Of a DNA stretch of 32,936 nucleotides, positions 5,534-20,633 are shown piece after piece (position 1 is the first letter of the stretch; each line of letters starts with the position of its first letter). Location of the stretch: positions 1 to 32,936 of IMG/VR virus record IMGVR_UViG_3300010883_000216. One strand, given 5' to 3'. The position numbers and the translations under genes were made by a program. The notes under the pieces are model-generated. The model saw only the letters and a program-made list of their open reading frames with translations. It ran no database searches and had not been told where the DNA came from. Source of the DNA: a virus.

Positions 5534-5546
5534 GTGTTTAACGAGA

Positions 5547-8500
5547 TTAAATCTCGGCTCCTTGATTAGTAACAACAAAATCTAGTGAGATGAACTCTAG
5601 CGATCTTGTCGGCTGCAAGAAAATCTTGCCACGGATTGTATTATTTTCGACATCAGCCTGAGTTGTTGTCGAAGTATCAATCTGCACCTTGTACCTATCC
5701 AAACCTTGTTGGGCTTGAATTTGTTGCATAACTGGATTCACCAAGTTGGAGAATCTAGCAAGCGTATCTACTCTGTTAGGCTCGAATAATAAGCCTTGTG
5801 CAATTTTCTTAACTTTTCTACGAATATCGATAAGAAGACGACGTACATTGACACGATCAAGCGCACTTTGTGCAGCCTGCAGTGTTTTCTGTCCGAATAC
5901 CACAACTCCCGGTGTATGGGGGAACGATGTAATAGGATTAATATCCGCTTCGTAGAGGGCGTCTAGATTAGCTCTCTTAAGCTTTACTTGTGATTCCAAT
6001 ACCGTATTAAGGGCACCACGTGTAAAGCCCGCAGGAGCAAACCAGGGATGTGATACGGAGTCATTCAATGAGAAGGCTCCGAGTACTGCCACTGAAGGTG
6101 GACATTGCACATTTGAGTTAGTAACTGGGTCTGTGATTACAACATCAGGGAAGTAAGCAGCTGCAAACGAAGAGTCCAAATTACGGCTTTCAAAGTTGTT
6201 AACCGTGTATGTGACGTTTGTAAGCTGCTTAGAAGATCCTGTAACAAACTGATTGTTTTGGTCTTTTTCCTCGAGGTCCATTAAGAACATCGCATCAAAA
6301 CGATTTTCAACAGAATCAATTGCATAATCTGTAACAGCTGGGTGTCTTAGACCTGGAATTGCTAGCAGTTGAATTTCTACGTCTGCTTTCTCTTCCATTA
6401 CGTCGATAGCTTTTCTATAAGCTGCAACTGTTGGACCCTTGACACCACCTTGATTAGCTGGTTCACTAAACTCTCTTCGTACGGCAACGTCTGTAAGCTT
6501 TGCTTTCTCTTTGTCGAAGATGTTGAAGCCATCAAATCCGCCTTGAACGAATGTTGTGAACTTCAAGTACTTACGAGTTGGTAAGTGAGCAAAGTCCTTA
6601 GCAGGATCTAGGAATCTTGTATCTGATGCCTGATGTGTTGCGCCGTTCGCTGAAGTTAACGATCCCTTTGTTCCGTTTCTTCTGTATGTCGCAGCGGACC
6701 ACTCATTAACAACTGGTTTGTCAGTAGAACCTGTAACAACCTGGACTCTTTCTAGAGTGAAGAGATTGTTATTATAAAGGTCACTATCTAAAACAGCGTT
6801 ATTAAGATTAGCTGCGCCTGCATTGTCTCGAACGAATACGTTGGCAATGTCTTTTCTGTGGCTTGGGAAGAATTTTGTAAACGAAGCAATTGATGTATCA
6901 ACAACTGTATTTCGATTAGGCTCTTCAACCGAGTCAATTCTTTCAAACTGAACGCCCCATGATAGATCTGCATTTGATCTTTTCTTGTTGCCTTTGCCCT
7001 GTGCGACATTTCTTCGCAACGGAACAGGTGTCATTTTAACTTGGCGTACTTCAGCCAATGTAACACCGGAGCCACCAACAAAGCATGTATCAGCACCTAA
7101 GACATCAGAAAGAGCTGTACTTCCGTCTAGCGAAAGGTGACCAGGACCTCTAAACCCTACTGGTAAAGAGCTGTCTGGCATTACGCCTCTTGATACGTCT
7201 GTATGCATCTGCACTCTTGCGTATCTAGACCTGGATGTAAATGCACCTTCAAGTCTTAGCTTTTGAGCGCCTGCTCTTTGGTCAAAGTCATAATATGCAT
7301 ACATATCACCGATTCTTCGGGCAATGTAGTTGTCAGAAGATCTGTCTAGGTTGACACCTCGATATGATTCTAAAACGACGGGATCTGAGTCATTATCGTA
7401 AAAGTCACGAATAACAATGTCAAATTTTCCGAACTTATTGTTTTCATTGCTACTAGCAGCGATATTCTCAATAGTGATCTTAAAAAGATCATTGGAGCGT
7501 GCGCCGTCATCTAAAGCATGAACCTTAAAGAGGTTATTGTTGCCAGCACCGAAGTCCTGGGACATAAACCATGGTGACTGTGCCGTCTGATATCGATCCT
7601 GGAAATCCTCATAGTTAGGATTATTTGATGTTCCAGTATTACGGCCTGAGGTTCCTGCAAGGATAAATGCAGCTTCTTCTAGTCCAGTTCCTGTGTGACC
7701 TGCTGTATGTACACCTGATGCGTCTGGCTGGGATACTGCAGAGTGCACATCCCAATGTGCATACAAGAAGTGTCCTGCTTCACGAACCTTATTAGGATCT
7801 GTATTTAGGACCTTACCGAGATAACTAGGATCAGATGGATCAAACGATGCTTTAATCTTATTGGGATATAAGCTAGTAGACTTATGTCCGTTTAGAAATA
7901 CCTCGAAAGCTTGCTTGCCATTGGTGAGATTAACAGTACCGTGTGCCTGACCTGCTGTCATTTCTTGAGCACCGGAATTGTTGGATACAGGAGGCTCTGC
8001 TGTATCGATAGTAGCTGTGGTTTGATACGACGATGAAAGTGCCATAATAACACCATCTGGAGTCATGATCGCAGCACGAAGAATTGGAGCACCAGCGCCA
8101 CCAGAGCCGGCTGTAAATGCGGTAACAGCAGGCGCCGAATCCGGGTGCTTATAGAGGATCTTGTTTCCGAGAGTCTCTACAATTGCTGTATTGCCATCAA
8201 TACCGGGTTGCTGAGTGAGTACTAGCGTCTGGGGGTTTGCACCGGCTGTATCCGTTAAAACTACACTAAGGAAGTCTCCACTCGCACTAGCTGCACCAAA
8301 CGCGTTTGCATGAACAATTGCATCACGAAGCGCTGTTAGAAACGCTCGAGATGTTGTCGCGACGCCGTTAGGTACACCTACTGCAATTGCACCGACGTTG
8401 CCAGCACCTGCGGTTTCAGCACCAGTATCAGATCCTGTCTCCAAAACTGTCCCTGTAGTAACCCCACCTGCGGAGGTGTTGGAAACAACAAACTTAAGAG

Positions 8501-9179
8501 TTTTAGGTGTGTCAGGATTGGTTGTGCGCGCAGTAATTGTTATAGCATGCTTCTCAAGGACGTTAGTCTTAATGTCTTCGTCACCATCAGCTGTATGGAT
8601 TTGAAGCTTGCCAGAGACACTCGTCAGTGATTGTGCGCCGGCGTCGACCAAATAGCCAGATGAATTTGTATCAGCCATCAACGATCCAAGGAAGTTCATA
8701 CGTCCTAGAGGTTGAGGTCTGTCAGTACCCTGGTCGAAGTCGCCGTCGGCGTCATCAATTGGTGCAACTGCAAACGGATTTGCGCCACCTACTGTCTTTA
8801 ATAGCTCTCTAGTTGAACCAATTAAACCGCTGTCTTTAACTAAACGCTCACCGACAACAAAACCGGAGTTTGTTACAACACCTGTTGTGTCATCACGCTT
8901 TGTGCCATCGCCTACACCTAAAACTCTTACATACGTTCCTGCTCTCGCATTACGCATCCACTCGTTCATGGCTAGCGGTCCAAATTTTTCGCCATCGGTA
9001 GCACCGAACTCTGCGACGAAGTCTTGATAAGTAGCAACTGTAATAGGAACAAATGCTCGCCCCTTGATTGCAGTTCCAATAATTCCGGCCGGGGTGCCTT
9101 GAGGGCCTAAAGCAGTGGGACCGCTTAGGTCGATTTCCCTCGTGCTAACACCTGGGCTTTTAAAAGTTAGCTCAGCCAT
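5547..9179 (-). CDS. Tail sheath protein, second paralogue (1210 residues)
   Basis: The N-terminus has the sheath pattern TFKSPGVSTREIDLS, then GTPAGIIGTAIKGRAFVPIT. The C-terminal 157 residues (from RGALNT at 1054) include VVFGQKTLQ and LDRVNVRR (1107-1114), hallmarks of the sheath C-terminal domain. The sheath contracts around the tube during infection. At 1210 residues it is nearly twice T4 gp18; the excess is a Thr/Gly/Ala-rich beta-type central region, probably extra surface domains. It shares both ends with the upstream 1061-residue gene, so the two are tandem paralogues that differ mostly in the middle. A good AGGAG site (9 nt) precedes the ATG, and the tube gene follows 48 bp later. 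Confidence 0.9.
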   Translation of the reverse strand: MAELTFKSPGVSTREIDLSGPTALGPQGTPAGIIGTAIKGRAFVPITVATYQDFVAEFGATDGEKFGPLAMNEWMRNARAGTYVRVLGVGDGTKRDDTTGVVTNSGFVVGERLVKDSGLIGSTRELLKTVGGANPFAVAPIDDADGDFDQGTDRPQPLGRMNFLGSLMADTNSSGYLVDAGAQSLTSVSGKLQIHTADGDEDIKTNVLEKHAITITARTTNPDTPKTLKFVVSNTSAGGVTTGTVLETGSDTGAETAGAGNVGAIAVGVPNGVATTSRAFLTALRDAIVHANAFGAASASGDFLSVVLTDTAGANPQTLVLTQQPGIDGNTAIVETLGNKILYKHPDSAPAVTAFTAGSGGAGAPILRAAIMTPDGVIMALSSSYQTTATIDTAEPPVSNNSGAQEMTAGQAHGTVNLTNGKQAFEVFLNGHKSTSLYPNKIKASFDPSDPSYLGKVLNTDPNKVREAGHFLYAHWDVHSAVSQPDASGVHTAGHTGTGLEEAAFILAGTSGRNTGTSNNPNYEDFQDRYQTAQSPWFMSQDFGAGNNNLFKVHALDDGARSNDLFKITIENIAASSNENNKFGKFDIVIRDFYDNDSDPVVLESYRGVNLDRSSDNYIARRIGDMYAYYDFDQRAGAQKLRLEGAFTSRSRYARVQMHTDVSRGVMPDSSLPVGFRGPGHLSLDGSTALSDVLGADTCFVGGSGVTLAEVRQVKMTPVPLRRNVAQGKGNKKRSNADLSWGVQFERIDSVEEPNRNTVVDTSIASFTKFFPSHRKDIANVFVRDNAGAANLNNAVLDSDLYNNNLFTLERVQVVTGSTDKPVVNEWSAATYRRNGTKGSLTSANGATHQASDTRFLDPAKDFAHLPTRKYLKFTTFVQGGFDGFNIFDKEKAKLTDVAVRREFSEPANQGGVKGPTVAAYRKAIDVMEEKADVEIQLLAIPGLRHPAVTDYAIDSVENRFDAMFLMDLEEKDQNNQFVTGSSKQLTNVTYTVNNFESRNLDSSFAAAYFPDVVITDPVTNSNVQCPPSVAVLGAFSLNDSVSHPWFAPAGFTRGALNTVLESQVKLKRANLDALYEADINPITSFPHTPGVVVFGQKTLQAAQSALDRVNVRRLLIDIRRKVKKIAQGLLFEPNRVDTLARFSNLVNPVMQQIQAQQGLDRYKVQIDTSTTTQADVENNTIRGKIFLQPTRSLEFISLDFVVTNQGAEI

Positions 9180-9227: not shown

Positions 9228-12200
9228 TTACTCGAACGAAACTCCGCTATTCGTAACGACAAAATCAACCGCAATGAACTCAACAGCTCTTGTTGGGACA
9301 AGAATAATTCGCCCGTTCATCTTGTTTGATTCGCGATCAGTTTCAGTATTATTTGTATTATCACAAACAACGCCAAACTTCTCGATGCCTGCTTGAGCTT
9401 GAATCAACGTAAGAAGAGGTGTGACTTGATTTACAAATCTCTGCCTAGTCTGATCATTGTTTTGCTCAAATAGCAGTTTTGTTGCAACGCCCGAAACTAA
9501 TCGTTTGACTTCTAGAAGAAGCCTGCGAACGTTAACTCTATCAAGTGCTGATTTAGCAACCTGAAGTGTCTTTTGACCGAAGATTACGAATCCACCTGTG
9601 GGGAAAACCGCGATGGGGTTAATTCTCGCATCGTAAAGAAGATCTCTGTCAGCAGAGTTAAGCCGAACATCAACGTTTGTTACAGATTCCAGCGCGCCTC
9701 TATTGAAGCCGGCTGGTGCAAACCATGGATATGCGACCTTGTCATTGAATCCTAGAGCTGTCATTGCAGCGACCGAAGCCGGTACAGAGACTACTTCATT
9801 ATTCACAACATCTAGTATGTCGATATCTGGGAAGTAAGCAGCACCGTAATTATTGTCGATGACTCTGGACTCAAACTGTTCTGATGTCTCTTGAACATCA
9901 ACCTTTGCTGTGGAATCGTCAAAAAGACGTGTTCCACCAGAAGCGTACTTAATAACATCCATCAAGTAGATTGCCATGCTGTAGCTCTTTACAGCTTCCA
10001 GTGCATGATCACTAATGAATGCGTCTCTCATTCCCGGGACAGCAAGAATGTTGACTCTTGATGCCATTGGGTTTGTTATGATCGTAACTGCTTCCTTGAA
10101 GGATGAAACAATGTTGTTTTTGTTTCCCTTGCCTGCAACGTGTGACTTAAGACCAATAGCGGGAATAGCATCAGTTGCCTTGCCACCGGTATCTGATGAC
10201 GAAGCTTTGTCATTCATCAGACGATTATCTCTATCTAAGAAGTTAACGCCGTCAAAACCACCATAGAACATTGTCGAGAACTTTGCGTACTCGGTAAATC
10301 TATTAAAGTAAGATGAACTGTTGTGATTAACCAGAGAAGCAAATGTTAACCTCTGGTCTGCTCCGCCAACGCCTGCATCCTTAATAGTATAGTATGATGA
10401 ATCAGGTTTGCCGTTTCTCATGTAAGCTGCACCGAGCATATGCTCCTTAGCAGTACCTGTAAGCTCTGTAAGCTCTGAGCCTACTGTGCCTGAGTTTACA
10501 TGGTTTGCGAAAGCAACGCGTGCCATTGTGAACTTATTATTATTAAACTTGTCAGCGCCTGAGCCTGTTACCAGAGTATCAAGCTTTTCAATTCCTTGAA
10601 ACTTAGCGTATGAACCAACAATTGCATTGGGCAGTGCACCAACATTTGGATTCATAATAGCATCTGTAATTGACCCTTGATCAGCACTTGATGATAGAGG
10701 CATTCTTTCGAACTTAACACCCCAGTAAAGTCTAGCATCTGATCTTTCGTTGTCACCTCGTTGGCCTGTCCACGTCGCTGTATTAGATGTAGCGCCGCGT
10801 GTGCACTTAAATCTAAGCGGCAGCGGAGGAATTACACTGAATGGTAGATCTGTGGCATTATCGTCTACATCGCCGTCATGCTTCATGAGTGACGTTGCAT
10901 AAGTGGCGGTGTAAGCATCCGAACCAAATGATGCGTCGACTGTTGCCGCTTGATCCATCAAGGATAATGAAGTTTTTAGAACTGGAACGCCACGGAATCC
11001 GAAAGGTAGTGATGAAGCCGGAATTTCTTTTTTCTCAACTGCATCTGCCATTTGAACCCTAATACGTGATGACTTATTAGGATACTTTCCTTGGATTGCG
11101 AGCCCACGATCTTCGATATTTGCTGCATTAAAGTTGTAGAAAACTTTCTTATCGCCAACTTTTTTGGCAACATAGCTATCAGAACTTGGATCTAGTGAAC
11201 ATGCAGGATAAGCTTCTAAGACTTCTAAGCTTGTATCAGTGTCAGCGAATCTTCTTACCTGAACATCGAATGTACCGTAAGGATTATTGGGATCCGTTGA
11301 TCGTCTCAAGTTAGCGATTGAAATCTTATATAGCGTATTACCAATTGCACCGTCATCGATTGTTTCGAAGTGAAACAAATCATGCTCAGACTCACCAAAA
11401 GGCTGTGAGATTATTGCGGGTGTTCTAGCAGTTGTGAATCTACTGTCTAGACGCCCGAATAGCTCAGAATGTTTTGCTGTTTTGAGAAAGCTTTTGTCTG
11501 AAGTTGAAGATGGTGATCCGATGTATACAGCAACCTTAGCAGCAGTTGCACCTGTATCTCGTTTGACAGAAGCTAGCTCATCCTCAACAGCAAAGTCTAG
11601 ATATAGAAGATGCTTAAGTGCTGTGAACTGGTCAGGGTCTGTGTTTAAAACGTTTGCGATATACATAGTGTCGCTAGGATCTAGTGAGACTACATAAGAC
11701 TTCGCATTTGCCGTTGTAATAGGGCTGGCATCTGTATCTTGCGCAATCCAGAGTGTGAATCGACCTGTAGCTTTGTGTGCGTCAACTGTTCTGGTGTTAA
11801 GCGCTTGCAAACCAGCCTCGTTAGCTGAAGCTGCAGCTGTTGTTCCGTCAGTTGCAACAGCTGGTATAATTCTTGTCGCGGAGTCTGTTAAGATAACAGC
11901 ACGGACAAGACTAACAGCATTGGCTGCAATTACGTACGAATCATTGTCACTGAATGCTGGAAAACCTGCGACTTCGTTTCCTGCACCATCAGCTCGTGTT
12001 CTATGTTCTGCTGTGATAAATGTTACACCACCATGGAGGCCGTTAGCGGCGTCGCCGCTCCGGGCCGTGGTAGACAATACAGTGCCAGCATTTTTAGCGA
12101 ATCCGCCGTTTTCAAAATTGCTAATATCTGTATCGTTTTCGATAACGCCCGCACCTAAAGTACGTACGTAAGTAACTGCATTCCTGTTCTTAAGAAATTC

Positions 12201-12413
12201 TCTCACAGCATACGGACCAAAACGGTCCTGGTCTAGTGTTCCAAACCTTGCTGTAAAATCTGCTAGTGATCCTACAGTGACGGGAACAAATGCTGGTCCT
12301 CGCTCTGCAGTGCCAACTACGCCTGCTGGTACGCCCAGTGGCGTGGCTACTCTAGCTGAGAGATCTATTTCCTGTTCAAAGAACCCAGGTGATCTAAATG
12401 TCTGCTCGGCCAT
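9228..12413 (-). CDS. Tail sheath protein, first paralogue (1061 residues)
   Basis: It begins TFRSPGFFEQEIDLS and then GVPAGVVGTAERGPAFVPVT, matching the start of its downstream paralogue. The C-terminal 157 residues (from RGALES at 905) carry FVIFGQKTLQ (about 945) and LDRVNVRR (957-964), the conserved sheath core. A middle region shared with the paralogue includes a Gly-rich FYGGFDGVNFLD segment (FVQGGFDGFNIFD in the other). It is about 400 residues longer than T4 gp18, consistent with extra domains on the sheath surface. The start has AAGGAG about 9 nt upstream. An ATACTTA motif lies in the 103 bp gap behind the gp15-like gene, and no terminator separates the two sheath genes. Confidence 0.9.
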   Translation of the reverse strand: MAEQTFRSPGFFEQEIDLSARVATPLGVPAGVVGTAERGPAFVPVTVGSLADFTARFGTLDQDRFGPYAVREFLKNRNAVTYVRTLGAGVIENDTDISNFENGGFAKNAGTVLSTTARSGDAANGLHGGVTFITAEHRTRADGAGNEVAGFPAFSDNDSYVIAANAVSLVRAVILTDSATRIIPAVATDGTTAAASANEAGLQALNTRTVDAHKATGRFTLWIAQDTDASPITTANAKSYVVSLDPSDTMYIANVLNTDPDQFTALKHLLYLDFAVEDELASVKRDTGATAAKVAVYIGSPSSTSDKSFLKTAKHSELFGRLDSRFTTARTPAIISQPFGESEHDLFHFETIDDGAIGNTLYKISIANLRRSTDPNNPYGTFDVQVRRFADTDTSLEVLEAYPACSLDPSSDSYVAKKVGDKKVFYNFNAANIEDRGLAIQGKYPNKSSRIRVQMADAVEKKEIPASSLPFGFRGVPVLKTSLSLMDQAATVDASFGSDAYTATYATSLMKHDGDVDDNATDLPFSVIPPLPLRFKCTRGATSNTATWTGQRGDNERSDARLYWGVKFERMPLSSSADQGSITDAIMNPNVGALPNAIVGSYAKFQGIEKLDTLVTGSGADKFNNNKFTMARVAFANHVNSGTVGSELTELTGTAKEHMLGAAYMRNGKPDSSYYTIKDAGVGGADQRLTFASLVNHNSSSYFNRFTEYAKFSTMFYGGFDGVNFLDRDNRLMNDKASSSDTGGKATDAIPAIGLKSHVAGKGNKNNIVSSFKEAVTIITNPMASRVNILAVPGMRDAFISDHALEAVKSYSMAIYLMDVIKYASGGTRLFDDSTAKVDVQETSEQFESRVIDNNYGAAYFPDIDILDVVNNEVVSVPASVAAMTALGFNDKVAYPWFAPAGFNRGALESVTNVDVRLNSADRDLLYDARINPIAVFPTGGFVIFGQKTLQVAKSALDRVNVRRLLLEVKRLVSGVATKLLFEQNNDQTRQRFVNQVTPLLTLIQAQAGIEKFGVVCDNTNNTETDRESNKMNGRIILVPTRAVEFIAVDFVVTNSGVSFE

Positions 12414-14528: not shown

Positions 14529-15701
14529 CTAGCCCATCGATATGGCTAATCCGTTCGGCATGGGAATATTCTTAAGAATTCTCATGAGGTTTTCTGAGGC
14601 ATTTGCCTCGTCTTCAAGCATCTTGCTGTATGTCATACTATCAAGCATTTCTTTTAGCTCAGTGCGAAGATTTGTTTGTTCTTCACGGCCTTGTGCTATA
14701 AGATCTGCTCCGTTTAGTTGTAAATCGCCGCCTGGAATTGGAACAGTAGCGAATTTTGATCTTACTAGGCCTAGCAATTCTTTTCCTAGTGCCAGTGTAT
14801 ATTGTCTAGTCCACTGTCGCCCAATACTGTTCACCCTAGCAAACTTTAAATTACCGTAGGGTATGTTTGATAAGTTGCTCATACCATCAATAGTGCCATC
14901 ATCATACGATGGGTTTAATGGATCGAGAGGCACACCAATTCTTATAAATAAGCTTTGTGGGTTTGAATTTGTAGGCTCTGGAAACACTCTAATTCTTGTG
15001 CCCATTATCTTGTAAGAGTAATTTGATCTTCTTACTTTCTGGGACAACTTAAGCTGACCGCCTCTTAAAACATCTTCGAAAACAGGTAAGACATAGAATA
15101 CTGTCTCAGGTGTAAACGATTCAAAAGAAAACTCATTGTTCAAGTAGTTAAGTGCTGATGTTGTATCGAAGAATCGATATGCAGCTTGAGGTGAAAAGTG
15201 AAACACCTCCATAATCTTAAGTCTAGTGGGTGGATTATTAACAGAGCTTGAATATATTAAATTTCCTTCGGCATCTTTTAGTTCTGCTAGAATATCATAA
15301 TCTTGACGTCTAGATTCTAGCTTAATAGATCCAGAGATTGTATGATACGATCCTCCGAGACCTGCCTCCATGGCATAAGGTTCGGCACGTCTCATGATAA
15401 GCTCCAGATTCTCTCTAGGGAACTTCTGTTCCATTCCAGAGATGTCTGATCCAGTAGCTGCGCCGATTAGATTCGAAAGCTGTGATGCAGCTTGATATTG
15501 ATTAACCAGCGATCCGTATTCTAGAAATGCTTCTTCAAAACAAGCCCACACCTGCTTTTTTGTTAGCTCAACTGATAGGATATCATCGCCCAGCTTTCGC
15601 TTGACAAATGTGACCATGGCATCAGCTTCATTTTGAAACTGCACCTCTTCGTCAAATATTCCAAACGGTGTTGGGGTTAATGTGTTTGCAAATAATGCCA
15701 C
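14529..15701 (-). CDS. Neck / head-completion protein, gp13-like candidate
   Basis: This 390-residue protein starts at GTG with TAGGAG 8 nt upstream. The N-terminus (PTPFGIFDEEVQFQNEADAM, then FVKRKLGDDILSVELTKKQV and CFEEAFLEYGSLVNQYQ) is an all-helical segment seen in neck proteins that contact the portal. The C-terminal part ends in a helical segment (TVPIPGGDLQLNGADLI, then REEQTNLRTELKEMLDSMTY). The gene leads the neck/tail-completion set, matching T4 gene order 13-14-15-18-19. It is expected at the head-tail junction. It is longer than T4 gp13 (about 309 residues). Confidence in the exact T4 counterpart is moderate; in a connector role it is higher. Confidence 0.65.
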   Translation of the reverse strand: MALFANTLTPTPFGIFDEEVQFQNEADAMVTFVKRKLGDDILSVELTKKQVWACFEEAFLEYGSLVNQYQAASQLSNLIGAATGSDISGMEQKFPRENLELIMRRAEPYAMEAGLGGSYHTISGSIKLESRRQDYDILAELKDAEGNLIYSSSVNNPPTRLKIMEVFHFSPQAAYRFFDTTSALNYLNNEFSFESFTPETVFYVLPVFEDVLRGGQLKLSQKVRRSNYSYKIMGTRIRVFPEPTNSNPQSLFIRIGVPLDPLNPSYDDGTIDGMSNLSNIPYGNLKFARVNSIGRQWTRQYTLALGKELLGLVRSKFATVPIPGGDLQLNGADLIAQGREEQTNLRTELKEMLDSMTYSKMLEDEANASENLMRILKNIPMPNGLAISMG

Positions 15702-15777: not shown

Positions 15778-16113
15778 CTAGCCACCACCCGCAAACTTCA
15801 TGGCGAATAAAATAGCCGCCATTGTAAACTGAACAACTGCAAAAACTGTAACTGCCTTGGTTTTGAAAACCTTTAAGCTCTCGACATCTTCTGTCAATAC
15901 TTTAAGCTGTGTGGGCGACGCGACTTCATCGATTTTATCTTTCCAGACCTTCAACTCAGAAACCCTGTCTTCTTTTGATTTTAGAAGTGCAATTTCCTGC
16001 TTAAGACCTGAAATTTCATCTCTTAGGGCTGTAATACCATCTGTAAGTGTTTCTAGCTCCTTGAGAACTAATCGTGAATATTCGTTCCAACCATTTTGGC
16101 TATCATTACCCAT
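15778..16113 (-). CDS. Tail-anchored coiled-coil membrane protein, 111 residues
   Basis: Residues 12-82 are heptad-like coiled coil (LVLKELETLTDGITALRDEI and following). A single C-terminal transmembrane segment follows at about 86-107, ending in AGGG. The basic residues before the segment (KVFKTK) suggest a cytoplasmic N-terminus. The opening NGWNEYSRLVLKELE resembles a small family of T4-like and other phage membrane proteins of unknown role; XhlA-type lysis accessory proteins have a similar plan. The ATG follows the stop of the PAS gene with no spacer and uses a GAGGAG site inside that gene, so the two are co-translated. A role in lysis, membrane attachment or signalling is possible but not shown. 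Confidence 0.7.
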   Translation of the reverse strand: MGNDSQNGWNEYSRLVLKELETLTDGITALRDEISGLKQEIALLKSKEDRVSELKVWKDKIDEVASPTQLKVLTEDVESLKVFKTKAVTVFAVVQFTMAAILFAMKFAGGG

Positions 16114-16674
16114 TCAAGACTCCTCAGCGCCGGGCATCCGATGCATAGGAATGCCTGACTCGATCATTGATCGAAGACGACTTGATACGACGGCTTCTTT
16201 TAAGAGATCTAATCCTAGCTCTAAATTTCCTTCTGAAAAGTAACTTAGTGAATTAGACGCGTGTCCAAGCATTGCAACATTGGATGTTATATCCCATGCT
16301 AGTCCCATAGCACCAGCAAACTGGTCTTGAGAATCAAGCTTTGGCACGACATGTACATAAAATATAGGATCGCCAGACTCAATCATGAAAGAAACTGTTT
16401 TTCCATCACTTGCTTGTTTATGAGCCTGAACGATATGTGTGGTTAAGTGTGGACATTCAAACATTTTCTCAACACATGTAGTATCGATACATTGAATTGC
16501 ATTGCCCTTACAGGTGAGAACGTCCCCGTTCCGATTTGTCGACCAGACAGTGACCGGAACGGGGAAATGCTCAAAAAAGTCATTAAACGCAGAAACATCC
16601 CTCTTGAGTTGCTCATCACGATCACTCAAGTCATCAACTAATTCTCTTAGCTTTAGAAGGCTGTCTCCACGCAT
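16114..16674 (-). CDS. PAS-domain protein with no output domain
   Basis: The frame extends to a TTG at 16683, but the ATG at 16674 is preferred; neither has a clear Shine-Dalgarno. After a 25-residue coiled-coil linker (LLKLRELVDDLSDRDEQLKR), residues about 29-130 look like a PAS fold. They run FNDFFEHFPVPVTVWSTNRN, GDVLTCKGNAI, GKTVSFMIES, PIFYVHVVPKLD and FAGAMGLAWDIT. PAS domains sense small molecules, redox or light or mediate dimerisation. Several Cys and His (CIDTTC, FECPH) could bind a ligand or metal. No kinase, cyclase or DNA-binding domain follows, only a 55-residue helical tail. It abuts the downstream membrane-anchored coiled-coil gene. A PAS protein inside a late structural operon is unusual. 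Confidence 0.7.
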   Translation of the reverse strand: MRGDSLLKLRELVDDLSDRDEQLKRDVSAFNDFFEHFPVPVTVWSTNRNGDVLTCKGNAIQCIDTTCVEKMFECPHLTTHIVQAHKQASDGKTVSFMIESGDPIFYVHVVPKLDSQDQFAGAMGLAWDITSNVAMLGHASNSLSYFSEGNLELGLDLLKEAVVSSRLRSMIESGIPMHRMPGAEES

Positions 16675-16686
16675 AATAATCAACTA

Positions 16687-17223
16687 CTAGCTAAGTGCTA
16701 TTGCTGCTGGTCCGAACCACTCAACGATGACTACAACTGTAGCAGTTCCAGTAGCCGCTGATATGTCTTCTTTAGCAACTAGCTGAAAGTATGATGCAGC
16801 TGTGCCGCGGTCGATAGCAGCTAGAGTACCCATATTAATGCTGTCATTGACGACATCAACGGCACCAACGTTTAAGTCAGTGTCGGGTAACGATAAGTTG
16901 CCGGCCTCATCGGCCCCAACAATCTCTGTTCCAGCTGAAGCTGCGTCTACAGCAACGTCAGCGCTGTGAACTTCAAGTGCAACTGAACCGTTATCTGACG
17001 TGAGCAATGCTGTTCCGATGATATGAGCGTTTGTAATTCTAGCTTGCGCAGGAATGTACATGCCTAAACGTGCAACAACATCATTGTCTGCAGATGCATT
17101 TGTGACTGTGAGTTCTTCTACCCACCGGTGAAAACCGACTTCGCCTGCTGTGTCTGAATGCTCAAAGCCCTTACCGGACTTCTGAACCAAACCTTTGGCG
17201 TTTGATAACTGTACCTTTGGCAT
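16687..17223 (-). CDS. Beta-rich structural protein of unknown role, 178 residues
   Basis: This is an Ala/Val/Thr/Asp-rich protein with alternating short strands (VEELTVTNAS, VALEVHSADV, TVVVIVEWFGP) and almost no Lys/Arg outside the first 35 residues. It has no signal peptide, Cys or catalytic motif. Composition and placement behind the capsid gene suggest a virion component such as a head decoration or outer capsid protein. A strong AAGGAG site precedes the ATG. The 101-bp gap upstream contains a TATAAT hexamer (17275-17280, 51 nt from the start) that might serve as a promoter. I do not recognise the family. Confidence 0.6.
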   Translation of the reverse strand: MPKVQLSNAKGLVQKSGKGFEHSDTAGEVGFHRWVEELTVTNASADNDVVARLGMYIPAQARITNAHIIGTALLTSDNGSVALEVHSADVAVDAASAGTEIVGADEAGNLSLPDTDLNVGAVDVVNDSINMGTLAAIDRGTAASYFQLVAKEDISAATGTATVVVIVEWFGPAAIALS

Positions 17224-17695: not shown

Positions 17696-18631
17696 TTACT
17701 CTATTCCTGCTAAGTGATTCCACCTCTCTAAAAGCACATCGCCCTTATGCCGCGAGCCTTCTTGAGTTGTAGCCTTTTCTTTGTCACCATCGTCTTTTTC
17801 GACTTGATATGGTGGGTTAACATCAACCTCTCCAGTGGTTAAAGCCTGGATAGCTGGTTGAGGATTGTCGATAACAGGCATGTCAGGTCTTTCAGGTGCA
17901 CCAGGTGGTGTTTCAAACTTTAACCCAGAAAGGTTGCTTACCATTTTATCGGCAGCTGCTTGAATAGCTTCTTCGCCTGTTTTGTCCGTAAACTTCTCTA
18001 ATGCCTGCAATACTTGTTCAGGAGGTCGAGGAAATTCACCAGGAACACCTTCAGCTGCAAACTTTTCTAATGTAGCTCTAACAGGACCTTCTTGAAACTG
18101 ATCGAATCCGCCCGATGCCGGTTTACCCTGGGTAATTCCAAACTTACCTGCTGTAATAGCGTTAAGAATTGCGATTAATTCTTCACCTGGAAAATCGACT
18201 TGATATCCGCCCACAGGCTTTGATGGATCGACCATTGCTGTTGCAACCCATCGATGGTGCCCGTCCATGATGTGATTATCACTACTGATAAACGCTTCAA
18301 TGTTTCCGCCTAATTCCATGTCGCCTAAAATCATTGAGATAGCTTGACCCATAGCTTTTTCTATGTTCATGCTAGTCTGGGAAGGCTTAAGCTCGCTGAC
18401 TGGCTTCGAAGTGCCAGTAACAGCAATCGTATCTTCTTCAGAAGGCTCTGTGCTTACAGCTCTCTTCGCAAATTCTGCATCTACTGATGATAGATTTGTG
18501 GGAAATCTGTCGACTTCGACCTTTCCTGGGTCGGCCTTTTCATTAAGCGTCTCCACAATTAAGTTAGTCAGTTCTTTCGTAGAAAGTTTTTTTGTCTTGG
18601 TTTTGAAGCCGTATAGATCTGTAAGTTTCAT
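17696..18631 (-). CDS. ParB/sulfiredoxin-fold protein with head-targeting-like N-terminus
   Basis: This is a 311-residue protein. Residues about 78-135 fit the ParB/Srx fold: VSELKPSQTSMNIEKAM is followed by NHIMDGHHRWVATAM, with the DGHHRW motif at 123-128. In ParB-related families this pocket binds nucleotide, and some members are nucleases, CTPases or kinases. The N-terminus carries LSTKELTNLIVETLNE|K, an amphipathic helix ending in an L-x-E site (29-31) of the type cut by the gp21 protease. A Pro/Gly-rich C-terminal half (about 215-300) is disordered-looking. The start has AAGGAG and an ATACTTA motif 31 nt upstream, after the capsid terminator. Possible roles are a packaged internal protein or a DNA-modifying factor; neither is demonstrated. 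Confidence 0.7.
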   Translation of the reverse strand: MKLTDLYGFKTKTKKLSTKELTNLIVETLNEKADPGKVEVDRFPTNLSSVDAEFAKRAVSTEPSEEDTIAVTGTSKPVSELKPSQTSMNIEKAMGQAISMILGDMELGGNIEAFISSDNHIMDGHHRWVATAMVDPSKPVGGYQVDFPGEELIAILNAITAGKFGITQGKPASGGFDQFQEGPVRATLEKFAAEGVPGEFPRPPEQVLQALEKFTDKTGEEAIQAAADKMVSNLSGLKFETPPGAPERPDMPVIDNPQPAIQALTTGEVDVNPPYQVEKDDGDKEKATTQEGSRHKGDVLLERWNHLAGIE

Positions 18632-18734: not shown

Positions 18735-20633
18735 TTAGATAATATTCATATCCATACAAGTAACAGTTCCGAAGAAATCGGATCGAACCATCTTCTTACC
18801 GTATCGAGTCATCACGCCCTTGCGAGGAGTGAAGTCTTCTGGTGCGAAGATCGTAGGAGTAACGATCAGCGGAACATATGGAGCATAGACGTATCCAGAC
18901 TCAAGGTAGCTTCCGCCCTTGTATCCAACCAGAACCTTGTTGCGAGGGAAGTAGGGATCCTTGTAAACCGTGAAACGATTTGAAAGGGTACCGACCTTAT
19001 CTGCACCAATGCTCATTGGCTGACTGACCTGACCTTCACCATCCAAGCTATAGCTAGGACGATACATGACAGATGACTCAAGGATTGTAGCAACATCTGG
19101 ACCAACAACGATGAAGTTAGCAGAACCACGTAGCGTCTTGCGGTGGATCTGGTTAGCAACGTCGATGATTGTCTCAGTGAGCGTCTCATACCATTCGCGA
19201 ACTGTACCAGTAAAGGCCGGACCAGGATTAAGGGTTGAAGTTCTTGCGATCTCTGCACCACTCTGCTTGTTTACGAACTTACCAGGAGCACGTGACCAGT
19301 AGAAGTTAGCAGCGTTAGCGCTATGAAGAAGATCACCAAGGATCTCGCGGTCAATCTCAAGAGCAATCTGCTCTGAGAGGATCTGAGTAAGCTCAACCTC
19401 AGCGTCAAGGCTGTGGTAAGCATTCAGGTCCTGTGCGAGTTCCGGTGTCCACTTGGCACGGAGCTTACGAGTAACTGCAGTAACTGCAATTGATTCGATC
19501 TTGATGTCAATCTCAGGGATCTCACCATCATCGCCACCGGTAACACCAGCAGTGAAGTCAGATTCGAAACCAGGAACTGTGATGGTTGAACCAACACCGC
19601 TCTCGACGTCAACTGATGCTGAACGCACGAAGTTAGCTGAGATGTTGGCAGCATCAGCAGTGTTAATACCCGCTGACTGCATAACGAACAGAACGTTGTC
19701 TCCTCCAAGTGGATCAACTTCAAATGCAGTGACTTGCTCGGCGGCAAGAACACCACCAGCAGTGTCACGTGTAGCGTTACCAAGCTGATTAAGGCGTCGA
19801 AGATTTAGAGATTTACCACCCTGAAACTTCTCTGACCAATAATCGCCTGTGCTAGCATTAAGAGCAGCATGACCGGAAAGTGCAACTTCGCGAATCATAG
19901 TCTTATCGAGTAGATTCGTTGCCGTTCCTGTTGTGTGCTCCAAGAAAGCAGTAGGAACAACAAAAAGAGTAATAGTTCCGCCGTCTTCTAGATGCTGAAG
20001 CACCTGTGGGTCGTACTGAACTAGCTTCTTCTCTGCGTCGGTAATTGGGTTAGCCCCATCAGCGTTACTAATGCTAACACCGAAATCACACGTATCATCG
20101 TGAATATCAGTAACATCAACGCCAATTCGAGCACGTGAATAACCAGCGCCGGCAAGGTCATATTGACCACCAGCTGCTAGCGATCCGCTTCGGATGCCCT
20201 TACCTGTTGGGTTGTTATAAATTGAGTCGCCTTGACGGTATACACCGTCAGCAGGGGTTGCTCCATCACCGATATTATCACCATAGGTGTAATCTAGATA
20301 GAAAAGTAGTCCCGAAGGAAGACTCATTGGCTGAATTGAAACAAGATCGTTAGCAATCAATCCACCGAAAACTCGGCGAACGATTGGAAACGCGATGTTT
20401 GAGAAACCGCGGATATCACTGTTGCCGGCTGTGCCAGCACCCATATCCGAAGCTTCTCGCAGAACCTGTGAGGCCTGGTTCTCGAGCATGCGGGCCATAT
20501 TCTCACGGTGTACTCCGTCTAAACCACGGAGGAGACCTGTGCGAGACCACTTCTCGAGTAGACGACTGTTTTGGGTTCCGAGATGTCGTTCCCGGATTCC
20601 CTCAGTCAATTGCTCAAGTGAAAAATTAGACAT
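18735..20633 (-). CDS. Major capsid protein, T4 gp23-like
   Basis: The 632-residue protein has the unmistakable gp23 block SNIAFPIVRRVFGGLIAND, then VSIQPMSLPSGLLFYLDYTYG (about 76-117). The later KLRAKWTPELAQDLNAYHSL and QIALEIDREILGDL segments are also gp23-like. The sequence VLRE|A at 57-61 matches the (L/I)xE rule of the prohead protease and sits near the T4 cleavage at residue 65, so removal of 60 residues is predicted. It forms the hexamers of the shell. The ATG has AGGAG 8 nt upstream. An ACACTTA variant of the ATACTTA motif lies 29 nt upstream and a strong terminator follows, as expected for the most abundant late product. It is longer than T4 gp23 (521 residues), probably through an inserted domain. 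Confidence 0.97.
   Translation of the reverse strand: MSNFSLEQLTEGIRERHLGTQNSRLLEKWSRTGLLRGLDGVHRENMARMLENQASQVLREASDMGAGTAGNSDIRGFSNIAFPIVRRVFGGLIANDLVSIQPMSLPSGLLFYLDYTYGDNIGDGATPADGVYRQGDSIYNNPTGKGIRSGSLAAGGQYDLAGAGYSRARIGVDVTDIHDDTCDFGVSISNADGANPITDAEKKLVQYDPQVLQHLEDGGTITLFVVPTAFLEHTTGTATNLLDKTMIREVALSGHAALNASTGDYWSEKFQGGKSLNLRRLNQLGNATRDTAGGVLAAEQVTAFEVDPLGGDNVLFVMQSAGINTADAANISANFVRSASVDVESGVGSTITVPGFESDFTAGVTGGDDGEIPEIDIKIESIAVTAVTRKLRAKWTPELAQDLNAYHSLDAEVELTQILSEQIALEIDREILGDLLHSANAANFYWSRAPGKFVNKQSGAEIARTSTLNPGPAFTGTVREWYETLTETIIDVANQIHRKTLRGSANFIVVGPDVATILESSVMYRPSYSLDGEGQVSQPMSIGADKVGTLSNRFTVYKDPYFPRNKVLVGYKGGSYLESGYVYAPYVPLIVTPTIFAPEDFTPRKGVMTRYGKKMVRSDFFGTVTCMDMNII

Follow-up and report, generated by a model that had tools for sequence, protein, structure and literature searches.

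What is a PAS protein with no output domain doing directly ahead of a tail-anchored membrane protein, amongst the head genes of a T4-like virus? The window we analysed, by which we mean the whole stretch of DNA (a T4-like virus record of 32,936 bases), has most of its genes on the minus strand in the order SbcC-like nuclease, large terminase, T4-type portal gp20, head protease and gp23, followed by the two genes in question, referred to here as gene A (the PAS protein) and gene B (the membrane protein), and then by neck-type genes, two tail sheath proteins, tube and baseplate. An earlier account made from the DNA letters (the sequence-only reading) had placed the pair inside the structural operon, and this agrees with gp23 lying upstream and the neck-type genes downstream. 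It had also located both genes correctly (they lie on the minus strand), with a span running to 16683, where gene A could begin at a TTG; we consider ATG 16674 the likelier start. The features needed for the argument are as follows:

18735–20633, minus strand, major capsid protein of the T4 gp23 type (Pfam and PHROGs), upstream of the pair
16687–17223, minus strand, 178-aa protein starting MPKVxxxxxKGLVxxxG, directly upstream of gene A
16114–16674, minus strand, gene A, PAS-domain protein of 186 aa (likeliest start ATG 16674, alternative TTG 16683)
16570–16671, minus strand, gene A N-terminal helix, residues 2–35, with the motif LxKLRxLVDxLxDRDxQLKxD; common to PAS-less partners and the proposed docking element
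16291–16554, minus strand, gene A PAS core, residues 41–128, ending in a PAS_4-like GxxGxAWDITSN strand
16159–16287, minus strand, gene A C-terminal helices, residues 130–172, as predicted in the AlphaFold model
16120–16125, minus strand, ribosome site of gene B, GAGGAG, inside gene A and 6 nt before the ATG
15778–16113, minus strand, gene B, coiled-coil protein of 111 aa with one C-terminal membrane helix (ATG 16113)
15922–16086, minus strand, gene B N-terminal part, residues 10–64, with a near-invariant WxEYSxLVLKELETL and then the coiled coil
15799–15855, minus strand, gene B membrane helix, residues 87–105, containing Gln95, which is invariant in 69 of 69 distinct homologues
14529–15701, minus strand, neck/head–tail adaptor protein (phrog_211, E 3e-11), directly downstream of gene B

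The PAS fold claimed for gene A is established as far as prediction allows. The AlphaFold model has a mean pLDDT of 87.8 (≥89 over nearly all of the PAS block), and in it strands at residues 41–47 and 51–57, a helix at 75–89 and strands at 94–99, 104–113 and 119–128 give the PAS topology of two strands, a helical connector, a long helix and three strands, with a 34-residue N-terminal helix and three C-terminal helices predicted to flank this core. When the model was compared with the PDB using Foldseek we obtained 51 matches at E ≤ 1e-3, headed by PAS or PAS-containing structures, with PF0695, Rv1364c, DosP, NifL and phage VqmA amongst them. The window protein itself matched nothing convincing in Pfam or PHROGs, and no PAS profile; in an alignment of 35 relatives, where sequences diverge to ~30% identity or less, PAS_4 matched 18 of the 35 (best E 2e-4), and the best PDB sequence match to the family profile was PF0695 (E 0.037, weak alone).

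The absence of an output domain also stands, with the addition of helices at both ends of the PAS core. By Pfam and the model, there is neither a catalytic output domain such as a histidine kinase or diguanylate cyclase nor a C-terminal DNA-binding HTH domain, and helix, PAS core and short helices make up all 186 residues. Inspection of the family by eye showed no heme or flavin residue that is conserved. A conserved cysteine pair acting as a redox switch was dropped as a candidate because both cysteines are common rather than invariant and several members lack one or both, and a heme PAS was dropped because the common F-helix histidine lies off the DosP heme histidine (in a hand alignment). 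We note in passing that the PAS model weakly matches predicted T-type holins from Serratia phage PS2 (E 0.008) and Proteus phage phiP4-3 (E 0.04).

Gene B is, as described earlier, a coiled-coil protein with one C-terminal membrane segment: it has a single hydrophobic stretch at residues 87–105 which ends six residues short of the C-terminus, and the long helix predicted for it has two parts with a break near a conserved Ser–Pro in the model. Fourteen positions never change in 69 distinct sequences (Trp9, Tyr12, Ser13, Leu15, Val16, Leu17, Glu48, Asp49, Trp57, Lys58, Asp62, Pro67, Phe91 and Gln95). Matches of gene B to DivIC, ZapB, SbcC and other coiled-coil profiles were weak and we judged them unspecific. 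Both genes are under purifying selection, with dN/dS values of 0.12 for gene A and 0.09 for gene B in comparison with a relative that is 87–89% identical in protein. A protein so strongly conserved, with an invariant glutamine in its membrane helix and no named family, merits a functional assignment even if its output should not be lysis.

The junction between the two genes is as tight as the sequence-only reading had it, with the gene A stop codon (TGA, 16116–16114) directly abutting the gene B ATG in the same frame and the ribosome site of the second gene lying within the first, and the pairing recurs in relatives. Queries with both proteins gave 41 distinct pairs of partner and membrane gene on viral contigs (39 with a PAS partner and two, L024 and L028, with a short one), where the junction ranges from −26 to +4 nt and is most often −1 nt; short-partner junctions range from −8 to +4 nt. 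Of the 38 PAS pairs, 30 have an AGGAG-type ribosome site immediately ahead of gene B, as do 24 of the 26 short-partner pairs, compared with 8.6% of random positions. Gene B comes next in every PAS-query locus whose contig reaches far enough, and amongst the loci fetched with the PAS family no PAS member was found apart from gene B. The A/B pair is real and is conserved in dozens of viruses that differ widely, large and marine ones of the T4 kind. A search of 50,697 isolate phage records found no relative of the window A and B proteins, of the A protein of L010 or of the B protein of L203, the doubtful weak matches being to the L014 B protein (E 0.2) and the L203 PAS (E 0.03). Tight gene packing is common in phages and two unrelated genes might overlap by accident, but we consider this very unlikely for a pair whose adjacency survives divergence of gene A to such low identity, another place in the genome and another PAS domain, with no PAS member seen away from gene B at the loci fetched.

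On most PAS contigs the pair lies, as in the window, between gp23 and the neck genes. A control made from the capsid side found many gp23 relatives with no pair in this position (many of these records are fragments), and the pair belongs to part of the gp23 group and is not universal. We also rejected the idea that every gp23 relative has gene B as part of its core, as 12 of 14 further records checked from the capsid side (again, many of them fragments) do not have it. T4 procapsids start on the membrane and PAS domains are often pure protein–protein modules, and this, together with the position between gp23 and the neck genes, would suit a pair in which gene B tethers procapsids or portal complexes to the inner membrane and gene A serves as an assembly factor built on a ligand-free PAS scaffold. 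Such a role in head assembly is unlikely in our view, given that most of the gp23 relatives examined manage without the pair and that in other viruses gene B is away from the head genes and has thyX, ribonucleotide reductase, ClpP-like protease or endolysin genes nearby, whether or not a PAS protein accompanies it.

A census of the gene before gene B at 69 loci found a PAS protein at 38, a short helical protein at 27 (L060 included), something else at three and the contig edge at one. The short PAS-less partners are helical proteins of 71–89 aa, and most of them carry an N-terminal motif, SIxKLRxLRExLC, to be compared with LxKLRxLVDxLxDRDxQLK in the PAS proteins. A profile comparison of the two N-terminal helices scored 35.2, where the reversed alignment gave 15.9 and the best of 100 column shuffles 19.9, and the PAS proteins and most short partners thus have this helix in common. 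L024 and L028 have a short partner with the PAS-type helix and lie between gp23 and the neck genes like the window pair, and the L021-type short partner, which adjoins a ClpP-like gene, was not joined to the other partners by profile comparison. A tree of gene B, whose details are uncertain with 109 columns and 69 rows, places the PAS and PAS-less forms mostly in two clusters, and its well-supported branches force at least four changes of the PAS label. Gene B also occurs without such a partner in a few viruses (L202, L205, L087, L091 and L092). Gene B is the constant part of the system, and its soluble partner comes in several forms, the PAS protein being one; the earlier picture of a PAS gene accompanied by a partner was right about the pair but had the roles the other way round, with the membrane protein being the conserved core.

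Some neighbourhoods recorded by eye may be mentioned here. In the viral contig L091, genes resembling IscU, NifU and IscA (iron–sulfur cluster; 6680–7640) lie just upstream of the divergent gene B, and in L014, L016, L093 and L095 the PAS-less pair is in a run with endolysin and acyl-CoA thioesterase-like genes, joined in some of these by glutamine synthetase-like and thyX genes.

A second PAS lineage bears directly on whether the two proteins work together. In L203, a 32-kb contig from a Prochlorococcus single-cell genome, and in L206–L209, viral contigs of 145–198 kb, gene B follows a protein of 138–140 aa whose N-terminal helix is the one described above and whose PAS domain is another, canonical one (the coupled PAS of L203 matches PAS_9 with an E of 7e-6, 0.3 bits below the cut-off), and no recognised head genes adjoin these pairs. 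The L203 pair is located at 5546–6309 and the neighbourhoods in L206–L209 are near-identical, with the source of L203 hinting at a cyanobacterial host for this lineage. Nothing argues more strongly for A and B working together than that the pair is coupled elsewhere in the genome and with a different PAS domain. We regard the description of a soluble sensor with a membrane partner, which the sequence-only reading had also arrived at, as well supported by fold, adjacency and conserved coupling, and think that the two proteins probably pair physically. Of the two outcomes that the sequence-only reading had named as fatal to it, a predicted structure with no PAS fold and a pair not kept in related phages, neither occurred when we checked for them. 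The same lineage bears on the earlier idea of a virion-carried sensor, according to which the particle would carry both proteins, inside it or attached, and they would act as it infects. The place amongst structural genes is all that speaks for this; the pair is found outside the structural operon, unsplit, in L206–L209 and in L063, and a tail-anchored inner-membrane protein is an improbable virion component, leaving the idea barely credible.

How the partners might dock is suggested by the shared helix. When A and B were modelled as an artificial read-through chain, the confidence of the gene A N-terminal helix rose from 71–77 to 79–88 despite fewer rows covering it, which is only a hint toward docking, coming as it does from an artificial single chain and from a model that gives no contacts. 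The reading we prefer is that A and B form one membrane complex which controls when the membrane is opened, and we give this a probability of about 35%. Gene B would be anchored in the inner membrane, its N-terminal coiled coil facing the cytoplasm, and would form an oligomer through the coiled coil and the glutamine-containing membrane helix; gene A would dock on it by its N-terminal helix, and the state of the PAS domain (a bound metabolite, or the redox or energy state) would be passed to the membrane oligomer. Both proteins would be made with the head genes, presumably late, and for this reason a lysis-type output seems the most likely, with the time of membrane opening being controlled by gene B, either a holin itself or a regulator of one, together with gene A, the partner that senses. 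It is conceivable, though doubtful, that this is a widespread module of marine T4-like viruses, in which the soluble partner is exchangeable (with no PAS, a PAS_4-like or a PAS_9-like domain) and a single conserved helix connects it to an unvarying tail-anchored membrane oligomer, so that virulent phages could adjust lysis, or some other membrane event, to the physiological state of the host cell.

Lysis control is thus our leading guess for the output, and a tentative one. The place amongst the head genes is a point in its favour, and gene B is present as one copy per record in 27 of 27 long records, which we also count for lysis, together with a weak holin-profile match of a divergent member (L091). 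An Amidase_2 endolysin was found in 13 of the 27 long records, and in 10 of those 13 it shares the strand of the pair and precedes it by 1–6 kb. Against this, the endolysin-linked records are all PAS-less and related to each other, and the genes between endolysin and pair are metabolic (thyX, thioesterase and glnA), so that this is not a clean lysis cassette. With the families tried, an endolysin was absent from nine of ten PAS records and lay 38 kb from the pair in the tenth; Peptidase_M15_4 and SLT endolysins were found in none of the 15 records tried and Hydrolase_2 in one of the 15. The phrog_689 holin profile matches three of 48 gene B members, all weakly, with the divergent L091 protein giving an E of 0.0029 and the window protein not being amongst them, and coiled coils attract chance matches. 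Gene B has no Pfam holin amongst the matching families listed and matches no established holin family convincingly, and the T holin family PF11031 was not detected in 27 records by a search run without a positive control. The earlier suggestion of lysis timing keeps its place as a possibility, with indirect support coming only from the PAS-less relatives.

The same evidence can be read in terms of the host, with the pair sensing a host metabolite and targeting some membrane machinery of the host (for division, proton motive force or transport) or a superinfecting phage, without being a lysis system. The pair is spread over genomes with varied neighbours, the PAS-less form is linked to metabolic genes, the gene B coiled coil resembles DivIC/ZapB-type proteins, and the variation in sensor form (no PAS, PAS_4-like, PAS_9-like) might suit host-specific signals. 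However, the coiled-coil profile matches in question are weak and unspecific, and a position amongst the head genes would suit a late role more than one in taking over the host, and we think this reading possible, though less likely than not. PADLOC defence models had no match to gene A, gene B, a short partner or the L203 PAS.

T4 has one of the closest known systems, and the analogy with it speaks for lysis control. The soluble cytoplasmic protein RIII of T4 binds the holin T (PMC8385771), and the holding of T by a small soluble partner allows environmental information to reach lysis timing (PMC8385771, PMC11413866). T4 T/RIII (plus the periplasmic RI) and the A/B pair are alike in combining a membrane protein with a small soluble cytoplasmic partner, and differ in that we found no sequence relation between them, with gene A and the short partners having no relevant PHROG match, and in that gene B all but ends with its membrane helix, unlike T with its large periplasmic domain. 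To our knowledge, RIII has no sensor domain. VqmA of vibriophage VP882 has a DNA-binding domain and acts as a transcription factor (PMC8284805); it resembles gene A as a phage-encoded PAS sensor, one that feeds a lysis decision, and its structure (7dwm) matches the gene A fold (E 3e-4), but gene A is without a DNA-binding domain and is paired with a membrane protein instead. The layout of gene B is like that of the XhlA-type and phrog_689 proteins. XhlA has an N-terminal cytoplasmic coiled coil and one C-terminal membrane helix and works with a second membrane protein, where gene B has a PAS protein as partner.

Stand-alone PAS proteins are also known. MopJ of Caulobacter is a single-domain PAS protein with no output domain which works by protein contact (PMC4432633), and it differs from gene A in being cellular, in acting on DivJ, and in having no dedicated tail-anchored partner. 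Two PAS-annotated proteins from uncultured phages, A0A6J5KZZ3 and A0A6J5RGP7, are stand-alone like gene A (169 aa) and are known here as domain annotations only; the first of them matches the gene A fold (E 3e-6). In the literature searched we found no PAS protein translationally coupled to a tail-anchored membrane protein, in keeping with the sequence-only reading which knew of no phage system of this form. Membrane-coupled PAS sensing, and perhaps regulated lysis, are of a kind already known, and it is the coupled PAS/tail-anchored pair that we would rate as new. Lysis timing in virulent marine phages is known for very few, with T4 lysis inhibition being the main worked example, and if our reading is true, a dedicated PAS sensor tied to a membrane protein would give uncultured ocean viruses a direct route by which physiology feeds into infection. 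The PAS, other-PAS and PAS-less forms provide natural, ready-made comparisons.

Several further observations were made around the capsid and tail genes. A strong terminator-like hairpin (18712–18687, minus strand) lies directly after the major capsid gene, with an 11-bp stem, a TTCG loop and a T run, and the genes after it may in consequence have lower expression. The gene past the capsid gene (17696–18631, minus strand) encodes a 311-aa protein with the motif DNHIMDGHHRWVA, reminiscent of ParB/sulfiredoxin-type proteins, and its sole match is phrog_2859 (function unknown, E 4e-12). The two tail-sheath-like proteins, of 1210 and 1061 aa, are encoded in tandem (5547–9179 and 9228–12413, minus strand), and both have the sheath C-terminal domain and are far larger than T4 gp18. 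In L076, L080 and L115, two gp23-type capsid genes are found in tandem upstream of the PAS pair.
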